This document shows positions 24,600-30,250 of a DNA stretch of 64,000 nucleotides, in pieces. Positions within the stretch are counted from its first letter, which is position 1; every line of letters begins with the position of its first letter. This stretch comes from Hymenobacter nitidus. GTDB taxonomy: Bacteria; Bacteroidota; Bacteroidia; Cytophagales; Hymenobacteraceae. The stretch is taken from contig NZ_JAJADQ010000006.1 of NCBI RefSeq assembly GCF_020447315.1, forward strand, positions 248,001-312,000, in the 5' to 3' direction. The position numbers were made by a program, and so were the translations under genes. The notes beneath the pieces were generated by a model, which worked only from the letters and a program-made list of their open reading frames with translations, was not told where the DNA came from and made no database searches.

Positions 24600-25673
24600 C
24601 TACTCCTGCTCCATTATCTTATTCTGGTGGTTGATAGACTCCAGGTGGACGGCGGCAAAATACTGCTCGATAAACTCGGGGGTGAGGCCCACCGACGAGC
24701 CCTGACGCTGGGCGCGCTCCAGCACCTCGTTCCAGCGGCTGGTTTGCAGGATGGTAATATCATTTTCCTTTTTGTAGACCCCAATTTTCTCGGCCACGGC
24801 CATGCGGCGGCCCAGCAGCTGGATGATTTCAGCGTCGAGCTGGTTGATTTGCTCGCGCAGGCTGGCCAGGGCCGTCAGAAACTCGCGCTGGTTGGTGGTT
24901 TCGTGGCGCCACACCAAGTCCTGAATCAGGTCGCGCAGCACTTCGGGCGTAATTTGCTGCTTGGCGTCACTCCAGGCGTTGTCGGGGTCGATGTGGCTTT
25001 CAATCATGTTGCCGTCGAAGCCCAGGTTGAGGGCCTGCTGGGCCACGGCCGCCAGCGTGTCGCGGCGGCCGCAGATGTGGCTGGGGTCGCAGAGGAGCGG
25101 CATTTCGGGGTGGCGGCGCTTCATTTCGATGGGCAGGTGCCACATTGGAGCGTTGCGGAAGTCGGTGTTGCCGTAGGAGCTGAAGCCCCGGTGAATGAGG
25201 CCCACCTGATTCAGGCCGGCCTTTTGCAGGCGCTCCACGGCCCCGGCCCACAGCTCCAGCTCGGGGTGAATAGGGTTCTTGACCAGCACCGGCACCTGCA
25301 CGCCGCGCAGCACGTTGGCAATTTCCTGCACCGAAAACGGGTTGCCGGTGGTGCGGGCGCCCACCCACAGAATGTCGACGCCGAAGGCCAGGCAGTCTTC
25401 CACGTGCTTGGCCGTGGCTACTTCCACGGCAATGGGCAGGCCGGTCAGCTCACTGGCCTTCTTGAGCCAGGGCAGGCCCTTGGTGCCCACGCCCTCGAAG
25501 CCACCGGGCTTGGTGCGGGGTTTCCAGATGCCGGCGCGCAGGGCCTGCACTTTGCCGGTGGCGGCCAGGCGCTGACAGGTTTCGAGCACCTGGGCTTCGG
25601 TTTCGGCCGAGCAAGGGCCGGAAATGAGGTAAGGCTTGTCGTCGGGCTGGCGGTTGAAGAGTGCGGATTGCAT
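24600..25673 (-). CDS. Bifunctional 3-deoxy-7-phosphoheptulonate synthase / chorismate mutase
   Basis: 357 residues from the ATG at 25673. Residues ~12-260 are a type I-beta DAHP synthase (YLISGPCSAETEAQVLETCQ, RAGIWKPRTKPGGFEG, LWVGARTTGNPFSVQEIA, PLLCDPSHICGRRDT), the first step of the shikimate pathway. Residues ~268-357 are an AroQ chorismate mutase (LREQINQLDAEIIQLLGRRMAVAEKIGVYKKEN), which turns chorismate into prephenate and may also be the feedback sensor for the fused synthase. Last gene of the operon; tyrA lies 185 bp upstream. Confidence 0.93.
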   Translation of the reverse strand: MQSALFNRQPDDKPYLISGPCSAETEAQVLETCQRLAATGKVQALRAGIWKPRTKPGGFEGVGTKGLPWLKKASELTGLPIAVEVATAKHVEDCLAFGVDILWVGARTTGNPFSVQEIANVLRGVQVPVLVKNPIHPELELWAGAVERLQKAGLNQVGLIHRGFSSYGNTDFRNAPMWHLPIEMKRRHPEMPLLCDPSHICGRRDTLAAVAQQALNLGFDGNMIESHIDPDNAWSDAKQQITPEVLRDLIQDLVWRHETTNQREFLTALASLREQINQLDAEIIQLLGRRMAVAEKIGVYKKENDITILQTSRWNEVLERAQRQGSSVGLTPEFIEQYFAAVHLESINHQNKIMEQE

Positions 25674-25858: not shown

Positions 25859-26704
25859 TTATTTTAGGATCTTCTTAATCAGGTTGGCCTGTTCAATTTG
25901 CTGGTAGACGGCGGGGTAATCCTCCTGGGAAATGAGGTGGCGCAGGTGCTGGAGCTGCTTGATGTGCTCGTCGAGCACGTCGAGCACGTTCACGCGGTTT
26001 TGGCGGAAGATGGGCACCCACATATCGGGCGAGCTTTTGGCCAGACGCACCGTAGAGGCGAAGCCGCCGCTGGCCAGGGCAAAGATCTGCTGCTCCTCTT
26101 TTTCCTTCTCCAACACTGTGAGGGCCAGGGCAAAAGAGGTGATGTGCGAAATGTGCGACACGTAGGCCGTGTGCAAATCGTGGGCGGCAGCGTCGAGGTA
26201 CTCGATGTTCATCTGGAGCTGCTCGAACAGGGCCTGCACCTGGTTCACGGCATCGGCGTCGCTCTGCTCGGCGTCGCAGATAACCAGGGTTTTGCCGGTG
26301 AACAGCTCCGGTACGGCCGCTTCGGGGCCCGAGTACTCGGTGCCGGCCATGGGGTGCACGGCCACGAAGCGGCCCCGCTGCGGGTGCCCGGCCACAGCGG
26401 CCAGCAGCATCGACTTGGTCGAGCCCACGTCGATAACGACTTGTTGTTCTACTTCTTCCAGCACCTGGGGCAGCACCGTGAGCATGGCGTCCATGGGCAC
26501 GGCCACTACCACCAGGTCGGCACGGCGCACGGCGGCGGCCAGGTCGGCAGTGCCTTCGTCGATGAGGCCCAGCGCCTGGGCAGTGCGCAGGTTTTCGGGG
26601 CTGTGGTCTACACCAATGACATGAGCGGCTAGCCCTCTCTGCCGGAGGCTCAGTGCCAACGAGCCCCCAATGAGCCCGATACCGATTACCGTTACTGTTT
26701 TCAT
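25859..26704 (-). CDS. tyrA: Prephenate dehydrogenase
   Basis: 281 residues from the ATG at 26704, which overlaps the stop codon of the aminotransferase gene (ATGA). It begins with the NAD-binding Rossmann motif (TVIGIGLIGGSLALSLR). VAVPMDAMLTVLPQVL and VIDVGSTKSMLL follow, then the catalytic/substrate block FVAVHPMAGTEYSGPEAA, with the His of HPMAG typical of TyrA. It converts prephenate to 4-hydroxyphenylpyruvate for tyrosine. A longer in-frame reading upstream overlaps the neighbouring gene and is not used. Confidence 0.93.
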   Translation of the reverse strand: MKTVTVIGIGLIGGSLALSLRQRGLAAHVIGVDHSPENLRTAQALGLIDEGTADLAAAVRRADLVVVAVPMDAMLTVLPQVLEEVEQQVVIDVGSTKSMLLAAVAGHPQRGRFVAVHPMAGTEYSGPEAAVPELFTGKTLVICDAEQSDADAVNQVQALFEQLQMNIEYLDAAAHDLHTAYVSHISHITSFALALTVLEKEKEEQQIFALASGGFASTVRLAKSSPDMWVPIFRQNRVNVLDVLDEHIKQLQHLRHLISQEDYPAVYQQIEQANLIKKILK

Positions 26705-27894
26705 ACTGCGGAAGTCGTAAAAGAAGGTTGCGCCTGGGCCGTGCGGATGCGCCCCAGGGCGGCTTCCAGCACCGCCGGAGTCTGGCACAGGCTCACCCGG
26801 ATAAACCCATTGCCGTTCGAGCCGAAGATGCCGCCGGGCGTGATGAACACCTTGGCCGCGTGCAGCAGCTCGTCGCTCAGGGCGTAGCCATCGGCATACC
26901 CAGCCGGAATAGCGGCCCACACGAACAGGCCTACTTGGTTTCGCTCGTAGGTGCAGCCGATGGTGTCGAGCAGCTCGAATACCAGCTCCCGGCGGGCGGC
27001 GTAGTGGGCATTCAGCTGCTGGTACCACGCTTCATCCAGCTGCAGGGCTTCGATGGCGGCCAGCTGCACCGGCAGAAACATACCCGAGTCGAGGTTGCTC
27101 TTGAAGCGCAGCACTTCCTGCAGCAAGTCGGCGCGGCCTAGCAGCATACCCACGCGCCAGCCCGCCATGTTGTGCGACTTGCTCAGGGAATTCAGCTCCA
27201 GCACTACTTCCCGGGCACCCGGCACCGCCAGCAGACTCTGGGCCGGCTCCTGATTCAGGATGAAGCTGTAGGGGTTGTCGTGTACTAGCAGAATATTGTG
27301 TTCCGTTGCAAACGCCACCAGCCGGGCGAAGAAAGCCGCGTCGGGTGGGGTGCCGGTGGGCATGTGCGGGTAGTTCACCCACATCAGCTTCACCCGGCTC
27401 AGGTCGCGCCGGGCAAGGGTGTCGAGGTCGGGCAGCCAGTTGTTGTCGGCCGTCAGGTCGTAGTCGATGGGCGTGGCGCCGCTCAGGTGGGCGGCGGCGC
27501 GGTAGGCCGGGTAGCCGGGGTTAGGAATCAGCACTTCGTCGCCAGCTTCCAGAAACGTCATGCTGATGTGGATGATGCCTTCCTTGGAACCCAGCAGAGG
27601 CAGCACCTCGGTTTCCGGGTTCAGCGCCACGCCATACCACCGCTCGTACCAGCCGGCCATAGCCTGGCGCAGGGCTGGCACGCCCTTGTAATTCTGGTAG
27701 GCATGGGTGGTGGGCTGCTCGGCCGCGGCCGTCAGGGCGGCCACTACGCGCGGGTGGGGCGGCATATCGGGGCTGCCGATGCCCAGGTTGATAACCTGCG
27801 CGCCGGCTTTGTTCATGCCCTCGATTTCGCGCAGCTTCTGGGAGAAGTAGTATTCCTGCGTGTGCTGAAGGCGGCTGGCAACGGAAACTTGCAT
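26701..27894 (-). CDS. PLP-dependent class I/II aminotransferase of the aromatic operon
   Basis: 397 residues. The fold-type I pattern is clear: INLGIGSPDMPPHP, YQNYKGVPALRQAMAGWY, the PLP stack region GSKEG and PNPGYPAYRAAA, WVNYPHMPTGTPP, and the Schiff-base lysine in SLSKSHNMAGWRVG. By sequence alone it sits near LL-diaminopimelate/aspartate-type aminotransferases. Placement between pheA and tyrA makes transamination of phenylpyruvate and 4-hydroxyphenylpyruvate the likely role, which is inference. Its start is 52 nt after the pheA stop codon. Confidence 0.88.
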   Translation of the reverse strand: MQVSVASRLQHTQEYYFSQKLREIEGMNKAGAQVINLGIGSPDMPPHPRVVAALTAAAEQPTTHAYQNYKGVPALRQAMAGWYERWYGVALNPETEVLPLLGSKEGIIHISMTFLEAGDEVLIPNPGYPAYRAAAHLSGATPIDYDLTADNNWLPDLDTLARRDLSRVKLMWVNYPHMPTGTPPDAAFFARLVAFATEHNILLVHDNPYSFILNQEPAQSLLAVPGAREVVLELNSLSKSHNMAGWRVGMLLGRADLLQEVLRFKSNLDSGMFLPVQLAAIEALQLDEAWYQQLNAHYAARRELVFELLDTIGCTYERNQVGLFVWAAIPAGYADGYALSDELLHAAKVFITPGGIFGSNGNGFIRVSLCQTPAVLEAALGRIRTAQAQPSFTTSAV

Positions 27895-27946: not shown

Positions 27947-28780
27947 TCACTTGTGCGTCACTCCTTTATGGTACACACCCAGCACTTCGAGGCCTTCTGT
28001 CACGGACTTCATTTCCCGCAGGGCGGCTTCCAGCTGGGCCGGGTCGTCGAATTCGAGGTCGGCGTGGAAGTAGTAGTGCCAGGTTTTGGCCGGAATCGGG
28101 AACGACTGGAGCTTGGAGAGGTTGATGCCCTGGTCGGCAATGCGGATGAGCACCTGGGCCAGGCTGCCCTGGGCGTGGGTGGTGTGAAAATACACCGAGG
28201 CCTTGTTGGGCTGCTCCACGGCCACGGCATTTTCGGGGCGGGCCACCACCAGAAAGCGGGTGTAGTTCTTCTTTTCCGAGTGAATATCCTTGCCCAGAAT
28301 TTCCAGGTCGAACAGCTCGGCGGCCAGCTGGCCGGCAACGGCCGCCGTGCCCGTCCGCAGCCCTTCCCGGATGCGCTGGGCGCTCAGGGCCGTATCCTCG
28401 GTTTCGACCAGGCGCCAGGGGCCGTGCTGGCTCAGGAAGTCGGCGCACTGCAGCAGGGCCATCGGGTGAGAATGCACCTCCTGAATATCTGCCAGCTGCT
28501 GGCCGGGCAACGCCATCAGGTGCTGCCGAATCTGCAGGTACACTTCCCCCGTTACGCGCAGGTCGCCTTTGCGCAGCAGGTTGTAGTTAGGCAGGATGCT
28601 GCCGGCAATGGAGTTTTCAATGGCCATCAGCCCGTGGCGGGCGGTGCCGGCGCCCACCTGCCGCACCACTTCGCCAAAGGTGGCGCAGGGCGTCGTCAGG
28701 GCCGCGGGGCCGAAGTAGTAGCGGGCGGCTATCTGGTGGAAACTTCCTTCAAAGCCCTGGATGGCAACGGTCGGGAGCAT
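27947..28780 (-). CDS. pheA: Prephenate dehydratase
   Basis: 277 residues from the ATG at 28780 (MLPTVAIQGFEGSFHQIAARYYF). The prephenate dehydratase domain includes GLMAIENSIAGSILPNY and the catalytic TRF motif in NYTRFLVVAR. The C-terminal ~75 residues form an ACT regulatory domain (SVYFHTTHAQGSLAQVLIRIADQGINLSKLQSFPIP, FHADLEFDD) for phenylalanine feedback inhibition. It is a monofunctional enzyme, because the mutase is fused to the DAHP synthase. First structural gene of the operon, directly after a leader with two candidate attenuators. Confidence 0.95.
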   Translation of the reverse strand: MLPTVAIQGFEGSFHQIAARYYFGPAALTTPCATFGEVVRQVGAGTARHGLMAIENSIAGSILPNYNLLRKGDLRVTGEVYLQIRQHLMALPGQQLADIQEVHSHPMALLQCADFLSQHGPWRLVETEDTALSAQRIREGLRTGTAAVAGQLAAELFDLEILGKDIHSEKKNYTRFLVVARPENAVAVEQPNKASVYFHTTHAQGSLAQVLIRIADQGINLSKLQSFPIPAKTWHYYFHADLEFDDPAQLEAALREMKSVTEGLEVLGVYHKGVTHK

Positions 28781-28808
28781 GGCAATGGGTAGTGAGATGG
28801 TATAAAAA

Positions 28809-28832
28809 AAGGCCTCCGGTGTCCGGGGCCTT
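28809..28832 (-). terminator. Attenuator terminator 2 of the pheA leader
   Basis: On the minus strand AAGGCC-CCGG / CCGG-A-GGCCTT forms a 10-bp stem with one bulged A and a 3-nt loop, followed directly by seven Ts. It ends 29 nt before the pheA ATG and starts 25 nt after the stop of leader ORF 2. Confidence 0.75.
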
Positions 28833-28857
28833 GGTTTGCTGGGGTGGCTGCACGGGG

Positions 28858-28938
28858 TCAGCGGGGGCAAATCAGGGCCGGCTTCTTTGGATAAAAGAAG
28901 TAGCAGTAGCCGTAATAAAAGAAAGCGGAAGCGGACAT
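28858..28938 (-). CDS. Leader peptide 2 of the pheA operon
   Basis: 26 codons plus TGA. The peptide begins MSASAFFYYGYCYFFYPKK and ends PALICPR. Nine of the eleven residues at positions 6-16 are Phe or Tyr (four Phe, five Tyr), a density not expected by chance and typical of attenuation leaders. The aromatic codons lie at 28891-28923, just upstream of the proposed antiterminator. No Shine-Dalgarno sequence is seen, as is normal in this phylum. Confidence 0.8.
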   Translation of the reverse strand: MSASAFFYYGYCYFFYPKKPALICPR

Positions 28939-28964
28939 GTGGGACAGGTGATGGTAAACAAAAA

Positions 28965-28993
28965 AAGAGCCTCCCGGGGTGCGAGAGGCTCTT
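28965..28993 (-). terminator. Attenuator terminator 1 of the pheA leader
   Basis: A perfect 9-bp stem, AAGAGCCTC / GAGGCTCTT, with an 11-nt loop, followed by a run of T residues on the minus strand (A-run at 28960-28966). It lies 40 nt after the stop codon of leader ORF 1 and 26 nt before the start codon of leader ORF 2. Confidence 0.8.
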
Positions 28994-29033
28994 CTTAGGT
29001 ATGGTTCAGGATGCTGGACATACGGCCTCGGTT

Positions 29034-29093
29034 CTACGGTTTGGCGTAGAAAAAAAAGTAGGCAACGTAATAACGGGACTGTAAGGCGGGCAT
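29034..29093 (-). CDS. Leader peptide 1 of the pheA operon
   Basis: 19 codons plus TAG: MPALQSRYYVAYFFFYAKP. Seven of the ten residues at positions 8-17 are Phe or Tyr (four Tyr, three Phe). The ATG lies 25 nt downstream of a fair promoter. The stop codon sits 4 nt upstream of the 5' half of the proposed antiterminator, so a ribosome releasing there would block it. Confidence 0.75.
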   Translation of the reverse strand: MPALQSRYYVAYFFFYAKP

Positions 29094-29117
29094 CTCAAGT
29101 GCAGTGGTTAACTGGCC

Positions 29118-29147
29118 CAAAGGTTAGCAATGATTTTTAGACAACAA
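29118..29147 (-). promoter_or_regulatory. Likely promoter of the pheA operon
   Basis: On the minus strand TTG (29145-29147) is followed after 18 nt by TAACCTTTG (29118-29126), one base longer than TAnnTTTG. Leader ORF 1 starts 25 nt downstream. Confidence 0.4.
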
Positions 29148-29250
29148 GCGTTAGCCGCCAAAATAATTTTATACCCTTCTGACTATCAGGCTATTTTATT
29201 CGCACAAGCCGACCATAAACCCTCCATAAAGCTCACCCGGCCGCCACGAA

Positions 29251-29285
29251 AAACTCCTGACCAGTCGCCCACCAGCCAGGAGTTT
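29251..29285. terminator. Hairpin between the pheA leader and the gene at 29489
   Basis: A perfect 9-bp stem, AAACTCCTG / CAGGAGTTT, with a 17-nt loop. It would end minus-strand transcripts from the gene at 29489 before the pheA promoter. The rest of 29150-29488 holds no recognised gene. Confidence 0.5.
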
Positions 29286-29488
29286 CTTCCTCTTGATCCG
29301 TAGTGCGGGCAGCGGTTACGCCCGCCGGACCCAACCCGCGCCGGGCGGCGCCCGGCAAACTGGGGCCCCAGCCCGGTTCGGGCGGGGCCAGGCCCACCCA
29401 GCCGCCCGCAGACTAAGCGGCCGGATAGTTGGCGCATCGGCTACGGGCCGGTGGCGCAGTAGCAGCAAAAGAGCAGCGCTTCGCATGG

Positions 29489-30250
29489 CTAGTCGCGCGA
29501 AAAGGCATTTTTCACCCGCCCGGGAATCAGGCTCAACCGCTGCCACATGCCTTTCGGAGTGTATGGAGCAAAGTATCCCATTGTTTCAACCTCCATCTTC
29601 ACTTCTATAAACGGCTTCACAGGTTGTGGAATTTCTATGCTCAGGTATCCTAATTGTTGGAAAATCAGCGGAAGCTTCTGCTCATCCTTGCCTGCTGGCA
29701 GTGAGAAGTAACCATTGGAGTTAGTAACCGCATAGCGAATGGTACCTTTCAGCAGTATGGCCACTCCTGGAAGTCCATCACCGGTTTGCTTGTCGAGTAC
29801 CCGCCCGGTTATTATAACCCCAGCTTCGTCGGCTGATAGGGGCTGGTCTACTTCAACTGGTTTGGCCATAAAGTGCGGGGTCACAGCCACCTGCTCAACC
29901 GGTGCATTCCGTTCATGGACACGGCTTTGGCCTTGAGCGAAATCCGAGAACAGCGTCCGGAAACTTAGTAGCGCCACCGTAGCTGCCAAAGCCGTTTGCC
30001 ACCATGCCGTGCCGCTCGGGGCCGGCAGGGGCTGCAAAACGCGGTTCAGCTGAGTGGCGCCGAACCGGCCGCAGCCCTGCCCCGCGGAGGAAGCCAGCAC
30101 GGCCAGGATTTCGGCGTCGGTTTTCTGGGTGAAGTCAATAACCACGTGTTGGCAGGCGGCGCAGTGGCGGCCCGCGCCCTGGGGTGTCATAGCGGCCCAG
30201 GGTTGGGCGCAGGGCAAAGCAAGGTGCAGAGTGACGGGCGACTTATGCAT
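29489..30250 (-). CDS. Carboxypeptidase-regulatory-like domain membrane protein
   Basis: 253 residues. The N-terminal ~70 residues carry several cysteines (CAQPW, HCAACQHVVIDFTQ, GQGCGRFG), with the HCAACQ-VIDFT pattern of a common Bacteroidota membrane-protein N-terminus. A membrane segment follows at ~84-100. The C-terminal half is a CarboxypepD_reg-like domain (IITGRVLDKQTGDGLPGVAILLKGT, NSNGYFSLPAGKDEQ, FQQLGYLSIEIP). It follows the VWA gene by 55 nt and probably shares its transcript. Confidence 0.75.
   Translation of the reverse strand: MHKSPVTLHLALPCAQPWAAMTPQGAGRHCAACQHVVIDFTQKTDAEILAVLASSAGQGCGRFGATQLNRVLQPLPAPSGTAWWQTALAATVALLSFRTLFSDFAQGQSRVHERNAPVEQVAVTPHFMAKPVEVDQPLSADEAGVIITGRVLDKQTGDGLPGVAILLKGTIRYAVTNSNGYFSLPAGKDEQKLPLIFQQLGYLSIEIPQPVKPFIEVKMEVETMGYFAPYTPKGMWQRLSLIPGRVKNAFSRD

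Follow-up and report, generated by a model that had tools for sequence, protein, structure and literature searches.

Two putative Phe/Tyr leader-peptide attenuators in series upstream of the pheA operon of Hymenobacter nitidus

Introduction

The pheA gene of Hymenobacter nitidus, a member of the Hymenobacteraceae, is preceded by two short open reading frames (ORFs) rich in Phe and Tyr codons, each with a terminator-like hairpin behind it. This layout raises the question of whether the operon is controlled by two attenuators in series and, if so, whether these read two signals or the same one twice. The enteric pheA attenuator consists of a leader peptide with Phe codons and an intrinsic terminator; in the enteric trp type, a 1:2 protecting hairpin forms when the leader is not translated, and transcription terminates. 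Attenuation in the Bacteroidetes has reportedly been the subject of older comparative work. We analysed the locus within a window of 64,000 nt (contig NZ_JAJADQ010000006.1, positions 248,001 to 312,000), using sequence reading, RNA folding, a ribosome-position model and comparison with relatives. Our reading, to which we assign a probability of about 0.85, is that the pheA 5' region contains a series of two transcription attenuators of the ribosome-mediated type, both responsive to Phe as well as Tyr. Comparison and modelling support the claim of the initial annotation that two complete leader-peptide attenuators precede pheA.

Results and Discussion

Organization of the pheA locus

Read 5' to 3' on the minus strand, the region displays a promoter-like site, leader 1, antiterminator 1, terminator 1, leader 2, antiterminator 2, terminator 2 and pheA (Table 1). 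The prephenate dehydratase, the aminotransferase, the prephenate dehydrogenase and the DAHP synthase with its chorismate mutase domain constitute a Phe- and Tyr-making set, and the order of the last three genes 3' of pheA is kept in 73 of 80 named loci (the best 80 of 139). The pheA genes of Hymenobacter lucidus (L126) and of genome G037 (L002), also from this genus, share 95% identity with that of the window. The two Phe/Tyr-rich ORFs were found where the initial annotation had placed them, and direct reading of the sequence bore out its terminator with seven T residues behind each.

Table 1. Coordinates of the features of the pheA leader region and operon, in window positions and in minus-strand order.
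Feature	Coordinates	Strand	Details
Promoter-like site	29118..29147	-	TTG (29147-29145), 19 nt, AACCTTTG (29125-29118); 5 of the 6 specified letters of TAnnTTTG
Leader 1 ORF, MPALQSRYYVAYFFFYAKP	29034..29093	-	19 aa, stop TAG; aromatic unit-1-type leader in 105/105 genus loci
Antiterminator 1, 5' half	29019..29029	-	GAGGC (29029-29025) and GTATG (29023-29019); fold, shuffle and partner-swap tests
Antiterminator 1, 3' half	28985..29003	-	CATAC (29003-28999) and GCCTC (28989-28985, common to terminator 1); fold
Terminator 1	28960..28994	-	Stem 28994-28982 / 28976-28967, seven T 28966-28960; -20.5 kcal/mol
Leader 2 ORF, MSASAFFYYGYCYFFYPKKPALICPR	28858..28938	-	26 aa, stop TGA; tail encodes the 5' half of antiterminator 2
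Antiterminator 2, 5' half	28867..28879	-	GGCC (28879-28876) and TTTGC (28871-28867); fold and partner-swap test
Antiterminator 2, apical helix	28847..28862	-	GCTG (28862-28859, overlaps stop codon) with CAGC (28850-28847); fold
Antiterminator 2, 3' half	28827..28839	-	GCAAA (28839-28835) and GGCC (28830-28827, common to terminator 2); fold
Terminator 2	28804..28832	-	Stem 28832-28823 / 28819-28809, T-run 28810-28804; -15.6 kcal/mol
pheA, prephenate dehydratase	27947..28780	-	Start ATG at 28780; Pfam PF00800, E 1.1e-53
Aminotransferase class I/II	26701..27894	-	Pfam PF00155, E 2.6e-60
tyrA, prephenate dehydrogenase (start approximate)	25859..26707	-	Pfam PF02153 and PF20463
DAHP synthase with chorismate mutase domain	24600..25673	-	Pfam PF00793 and PF01817

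ORF and terminator in combination

Terminator-like hairpins alone were rejected as evidence: a scan of positions 28000-30000 gave 3 sites versus 2.9 expected, listing terminator 1 and omitting terminator 2. Runs of five Phe/Tyr codons alone were likewise rejected, with 31 matches in the genome versus 29 in a reversed control. In the survey of these runs, 30 loci were fetched for the 31 matches, some of which overlap; only pheA leader 1 had a short ORF with a close, strong hairpin and T-run, the hairpin and T-run of locus L282 being weaker and more distant.

A strict finder was defined to require a short ORF that starts with ATG and has a high density of aromatic codons, with a terminator within 62 nt. 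Of 1050 shuffled upstream regions derived from 105 loci of the genus, none contained two units by this finder and only 1 contained a single unit; the opposite strand gave 0/105, and 2000 shuffles of the H. nitidus locus yielded one unit in 5 cases and two units in none. Unlike either part alone, the combination of ORF and terminator is significant.

Conservation within the genus and distribution in Bacteroidota

A pheA match was obtained in 107 of the 120 Hymenobacter genomes searched, that of H. nitidus included. Two loci (G107, truncated, and G114, weak) were dropped and a second G099 fragment was ignored, leaving 105 usable loci. All 105 carry at least one aromatic leader and 82 carry two when no terminator is demanded, the leader 1 count of 105/105 taking in 23 single-unit loci. 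Under the strict finder, with H. nitidus included, 81 loci have two units and 24 have one, so that both the ORFs and the hairpins are kept in relatives. An intrinsic terminator lies between leader and first gene: terminator 1 is present in 82/82 tandem loci and terminator 2 in 81/82, the exception being L105, whose unit 2 was excluded from the unit 2 counts given below. The tandem also occurs in 4/4 loci of the sister genus (strict finder) and in 15 of the 17 named Hymenobacter loci (among the best 80 of 139, and overlapping with the 105).

It might be argued that one unit is functional and the other a redundant duplicate kept by drift, an explanation that we consider improbable. It is favoured by the single-unit genus loci (24/105 in the strict count, 23 when no terminator is required) and by the single unit seen in 53 of 63 other named Bacteroidota loci (among the best 80 of 139). 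Against it, ORF, terminator and codon placing are kept in both units where pheA identity falls to 57%, and tandem forms occur in other lineages as well.

The lone unit of the 23 single-unit genus loci has a peptide and a terminator similar to those of unit 1, and loss of unit 2 would be the simplest account, the tree being unable to separate gain from loss. This tree was built from pheA (132 rows and 137 columns, with 71 of its 127 inner branches open). It requires six changes of form in all, five of them within Hymenobacter and its sister genus, and its single forms, which are of two kinds, fall into separate groups. In six single-unit loci (L034, L040, L043, L045, L046 and L050) the leader runs past the usual TAG site, and its ORF takes in the antiterminator 5' half, similar to unit 2 (sequence inspected for L034 and L045).

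Another genus of the same family has 9 tandem (L208, L238-L245) and 21 single loci among 30 of 34 matching genomes, the tandems belonging to one clade. Two further genera have single units in 4/4 and 7/8 loci, the eighth giving no strict match. The 63 named loci from outside Hymenobacter, mostly Flavobacteriaceae and picked by pheA similarity (part of the best 80 of 139), comprise 5 tandem loci (four from Chitinophaga and one from a MAG), 53 single units and 5 loci without a strict match. Flavobacterium loci examined have one strict unit or none. An order-wide sample of 30 of 87 matching loci gave 5 tandem, 6 single and 19 without a unit; eight of the 30 belong to the family, and the 22 from other families include 3 single units and the 19 without. 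Occurrence of the attenuator is hence patchy in the order and falls short of universal in the phylum.

Some tandems outside the family have features of their own. Leader 1 of Chitinophaga (L143, L144, L146 and L147; about 345-240 nt 5' of pheA) additionally includes a Trp codon close to where its cluster ends, the sequence being GYFYGFYFFW in L143 and L144; judged from its codons, this leader might sense all three aromatic amino acids. In the Bacteroidia MAG (L160), the units, 416-111 nt before pheA, look like mutual duplicates with near-identical terminator hairpins.

Promoter-like site

We take TAnnTTTG to be the -7 box of Bacteroidota. Only 4/105 loci have an exact box (TAnnTT[T/C]G) in the 70 nt that precede leader 1; a relaxed pattern (A..TT[T/G][G/C], 45-10 nt before leader 1), chosen post hoc after the sequences had been viewed, is present in 98/105 (background 0.19 per 35 nt). 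In the stretch separating the units, 0/82 loci had the exact box and 11/82 the relaxed pattern, the latter not above background. Absence of the exact box there says little, because this box precedes leader 1 in so few loci. Both units are probably under one promoter. Further upstream, after the preceding gene, another hairpin followed by T (AACTCCTG...CAGGAGTT; 29285-29245, minus strand) was noticed by eye; it is absent from the terminator scan and is perhaps that gene's own terminator.

Coding constraint and amino acid content of the leaders

Both short leaders are rich in codons for the end products of the operon. Unit 1 leaders (n=82) contain on average 3.7 Phe and 4.0 Tyr, with minima of 1 and 3, and unit 2 leaders (n=81) contain 4.9 Phe and 4.1 Tyr, with minima of 2 and 2, so that the two amino acids occur together in both leaders for every unit counted. 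In the cluster columns, Phe and Tyr swap freely and both synonymous codons occur, and codons beginning with TA or TT have T or C as third base in 615/615 cases in unit 1 and 438/438 in unit 2 (1053/1053 in total). This result is partly circular, because the ORFs were selected by Phe/Tyr density; zero purines among 1053 third bases would be hard to get otherwise than by coding constraint.

A very different view, that the two ORFs encode small proteins with a function of their own and that the hairpins simply end small transcripts, might take support from the conservation of both ORFs as peptides. We give it very little credence, as the peptides diverge outside the aromatic cluster, the tail of unit 2 follows the antiterminator sequence, and the cluster tracks the edge of the antiterminator.

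The initial annotation had also suggested a two-gate logic for an operon making two amino acids. The codon content does not suggest this, as Phe codons and Tyr codons alike occur in each of the two leaders for all units counted. One alternative, in which both attenuators work, one mainly for Tyr and the other for Phe, resulting in two-input logic, could draw on the edges of the clusters: those of unit 1 end in Tyr in 76/82 loci, and those of unit 2 start with Phe in 75/81 and end in Phe-Phe or Phe-Tyr in 77/81. We regard it as unlikely, given the minima above and the near-equivalence of stalls at different codons in the model described below. Codon content and model rather suggest that the series should multiply one combined signal than combine two.

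Antiterminator structures

Folding reproduced the pairings previously described from the sequence, GAGGC/GTATG with CATAC/GCCTC in unit 1 and GGCC/TTTGC with GCAAA/GGCC in unit 2. Two details had to be amended. The symmetric 4 x 4 internal loop of unit 2 holds in part, two of the four positions on each side being paired in the minimum-energy fold. The 5' half of the antiterminator lies after the stop codon in unit 1, but inside the ORF and before the stop codon in unit 2. The apical stems differ in the antiterminator 2 folds of other species.

When the spacer was shuffled, pairing of the terminator 5' arm in unit 1 dropped from 0.80 to 0.51 (ensemble-energy z -3.7; the 5% level was reached in 68% of 82); the effect in unit 2 was weak, from 0.66 to 0.54 (z -2.8; the 5% level reached in 17% of 81 genomes). 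Partner swaps were performed on dereplicated sets (18 of 82 for unit 1 and 36 of 81 for unit 2). Native halves paired at -13.5 versus -10.8 kcal/mol for halves swapped between species in unit 1 (1 of 20000 permutations), and at -17.3 versus -15.4 kcal/mol in unit 2 (0 of 20000 permutations). Limited to helix B, the swap test gave p 0.024 in unit 1 and no signal in unit 2 (p 0.73). The triplet following stop 1 varies together with the terminator arm or loop: TCG is accompanied by CGA in 34/34 loci and AAC by GTT in 29/34, with 0 cross-matches between the two pairs, and CAG has its complement CTG in 3/9 only; independent changes are few, because the events are at the level of clades. On sequence alignments, RNAalifold predicted consensus pairs for neither unit; on four clade alignments, made from chosen subsets, it gave 6, 11, 0 and 5, of which few show compensatory changes. 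Alignment A2 excluded L047, and alignment A3 excluded L028 and L030.

Position of the ribosome and folding energetics

The ribosome was modelled with an assumed footprint covering the RNA up to 12 nt past the first base of its A-site codon. For each position we calculated the extent to which the 5' arm of the terminator pairs with upstream RNA at the stage when its 3' arm has yet to be transcribed. In unit 1 (cluster -12 to -4), modelled pairing stays at 0.78-0.80 through codon -3, falls to 0.61 and 0.37, and ends at 0.21 on the stop codon. In unit 2, it is 0.72-0.73 to codon -12, followed by 0.67, 0.51, 0.28 and 0.18 (cluster end -11) and by 0.24-0.33 on to the stop codon, itself at 0.25. In unit 1 the drop thus precedes the stop by 2 codons, in unit 2 by about 10, and both times it comes just past the cluster. 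Per genome, it falls 1-3 codons past the cluster in 76/82 copies of unit 1 and 0-1 in 77/81 of unit 2, the model locating the switch elsewhere in 6/82 and 4/81, respectively. In the model, therefore, the switch sits directly behind the control codons in two units of unlike geometry. Stalls at different codons of the cluster differ little, any of them leaving the antiterminator free. When no ribosome is placed on the RNA, upstream pairing of the terminator 5' arm persists, with means of 0.67 (unit 1), 0.70 (unit 2) and 0.56 (single units).

At equilibrium, the terminator reaches 0.81 with a ribosome at the last aromatic codon versus 0.93 at the stop in unit 1, 0.75 versus 0.94 in unit 2, and 0.97 versus 0.98 in single units. 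As the terminator prevails in every state, the switch would have to be kinetic, operating co-transcriptionally. The model and the coevolution of the halves point to an antiterminator that excludes the terminator and becomes covered once a ribosome has moved beyond the control codons; the effect at equilibrium is modest and consensus folding was negative.

Proposed mechanism

From these features we infer that, in each unit, a ribosome would translate the short peptide rich in Phe and Tyr codons. With both charged tRNAs plentiful, it would reach the stop codon and cover the 5' half of the antiterminator, so that the terminator forms. With Phe- or Tyr-tRNA in short supply, it would stall in the aromatic cluster, the antiterminator would form first during transcription, and RNA polymerase would pass. 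As Phe and Tyr codons are found in both leaders and the cluster codons are near-equivalent in the model, each unit should open if either amino acid is short. The polymerase would have to pass two gates, each with its own ribosome, and transcription of the operon would equal one reading of Phe and Tyr multiplied by a second reading of both.

Why there should be two gates is a matter of conjecture. As the arm remains paired upstream when no ribosome is present, untranslated leaders should leak; our guess is that a second gate would square this leak and suppress read-through. A broader proposal, which we advance tentatively and at somewhat less than even odds, is that the same-signal tandem is a recurrent design, evolved several times in Bacteroidota, in which two ribosomes, working independently along a single nascent transcript, sample tRNA charging and the second gate proofreads the first. 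If so, neither an accidental stall nor a failure to initiate at one of the leaders could open the operon.

Comparison with known systems

Similar to the enteric pheA attenuator (Rfam Phe_leader, RF01859), the locus has a leader with Phe codons, an intrinsic terminator and pheA 3' of it; it differs in its mixed Phe/Tyr codons, its two units and the lack of a protecting hairpin in the model. The score against RF01859 is 18.4 bits, below the cut-off of 55, and the whole window has no match in Rfam at gathering thresholds. The locus also points to a set of pheA leader peptides in Bacteroidota for which the window matched no Rfam family. Unlike in the enteric trp type, the modelled arm stays paired upstream in the untranslated leader (0.67 and 0.70), and no protecting hairpin was evident. 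Elsewhere in the H. nitidus genome, trpE is preceded by one leader with WWW, MTCPVDTIQQAWWWPFRKSGRETLCVR (C31, L206:1231-1317), with a hairpin and T-run seen by eye, and attenuation therefore looks to be in use there too; this leader scores 33.6 bits against Rfam Trp_leader, below the cut-off of 41. Before hisG, no short ORF with two His codons was found among those scanned. The candidate cis-regulatory RNA Bacteroid-trp (RF01692), described in Bacteroidetes (PMC2864571, as far as its accessible part goes), has no match in the window or at the trpE locus.

For Flavobacterium psychrophilum, the available part of a published study describes a structured 5' element before pheA, present also in other Flavobacteriaceae and without an Rfam hit, and mentions clues for leader-peptide attenuation of amino-acid operons in general (PMC9723704). 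Our locus resembles this element as a structured region 5' of pheA in Bacteroidota; the portion of the account at hand does not mention tandem units or give the sequence of the element. The initial annotation knew of no described tandem in Bacteroidota. As a structured pheA 5' element as such has been reported there, the new part in Bacteroidota is, on the available text, the tandem. No paper on a same-signal tandem of leader peptides, a tandem Phe/Tyr attenuator or a Hymenobacter attenuator was found in the open-licence literature.

A parallel for the tandem is the Salmonella mgtCBR leader, which, according to the accessible part of its description, has two leader ORFs in series that respond to ATP and proline; its stem-loops are said to be unlike intrinsic terminators, and its authors regard it as a singular example (PMC3641672). 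Both systems have two short leader ORFs in series, each acting, or in our case predicted to act, on transcription into the operon. In contrast to the different signals of mgtCBR as there described, Phe and Tyr codons are present here in both leaders of every unit counted. Attenuators are normally single, and the sole tandem of leader ORFs that we found in print answers, from what is available of its description, two different signals. A conserved same-signal pair, present in several lineages, would provide a natural test of whether gating in series sharpens a response or cuts its noise.
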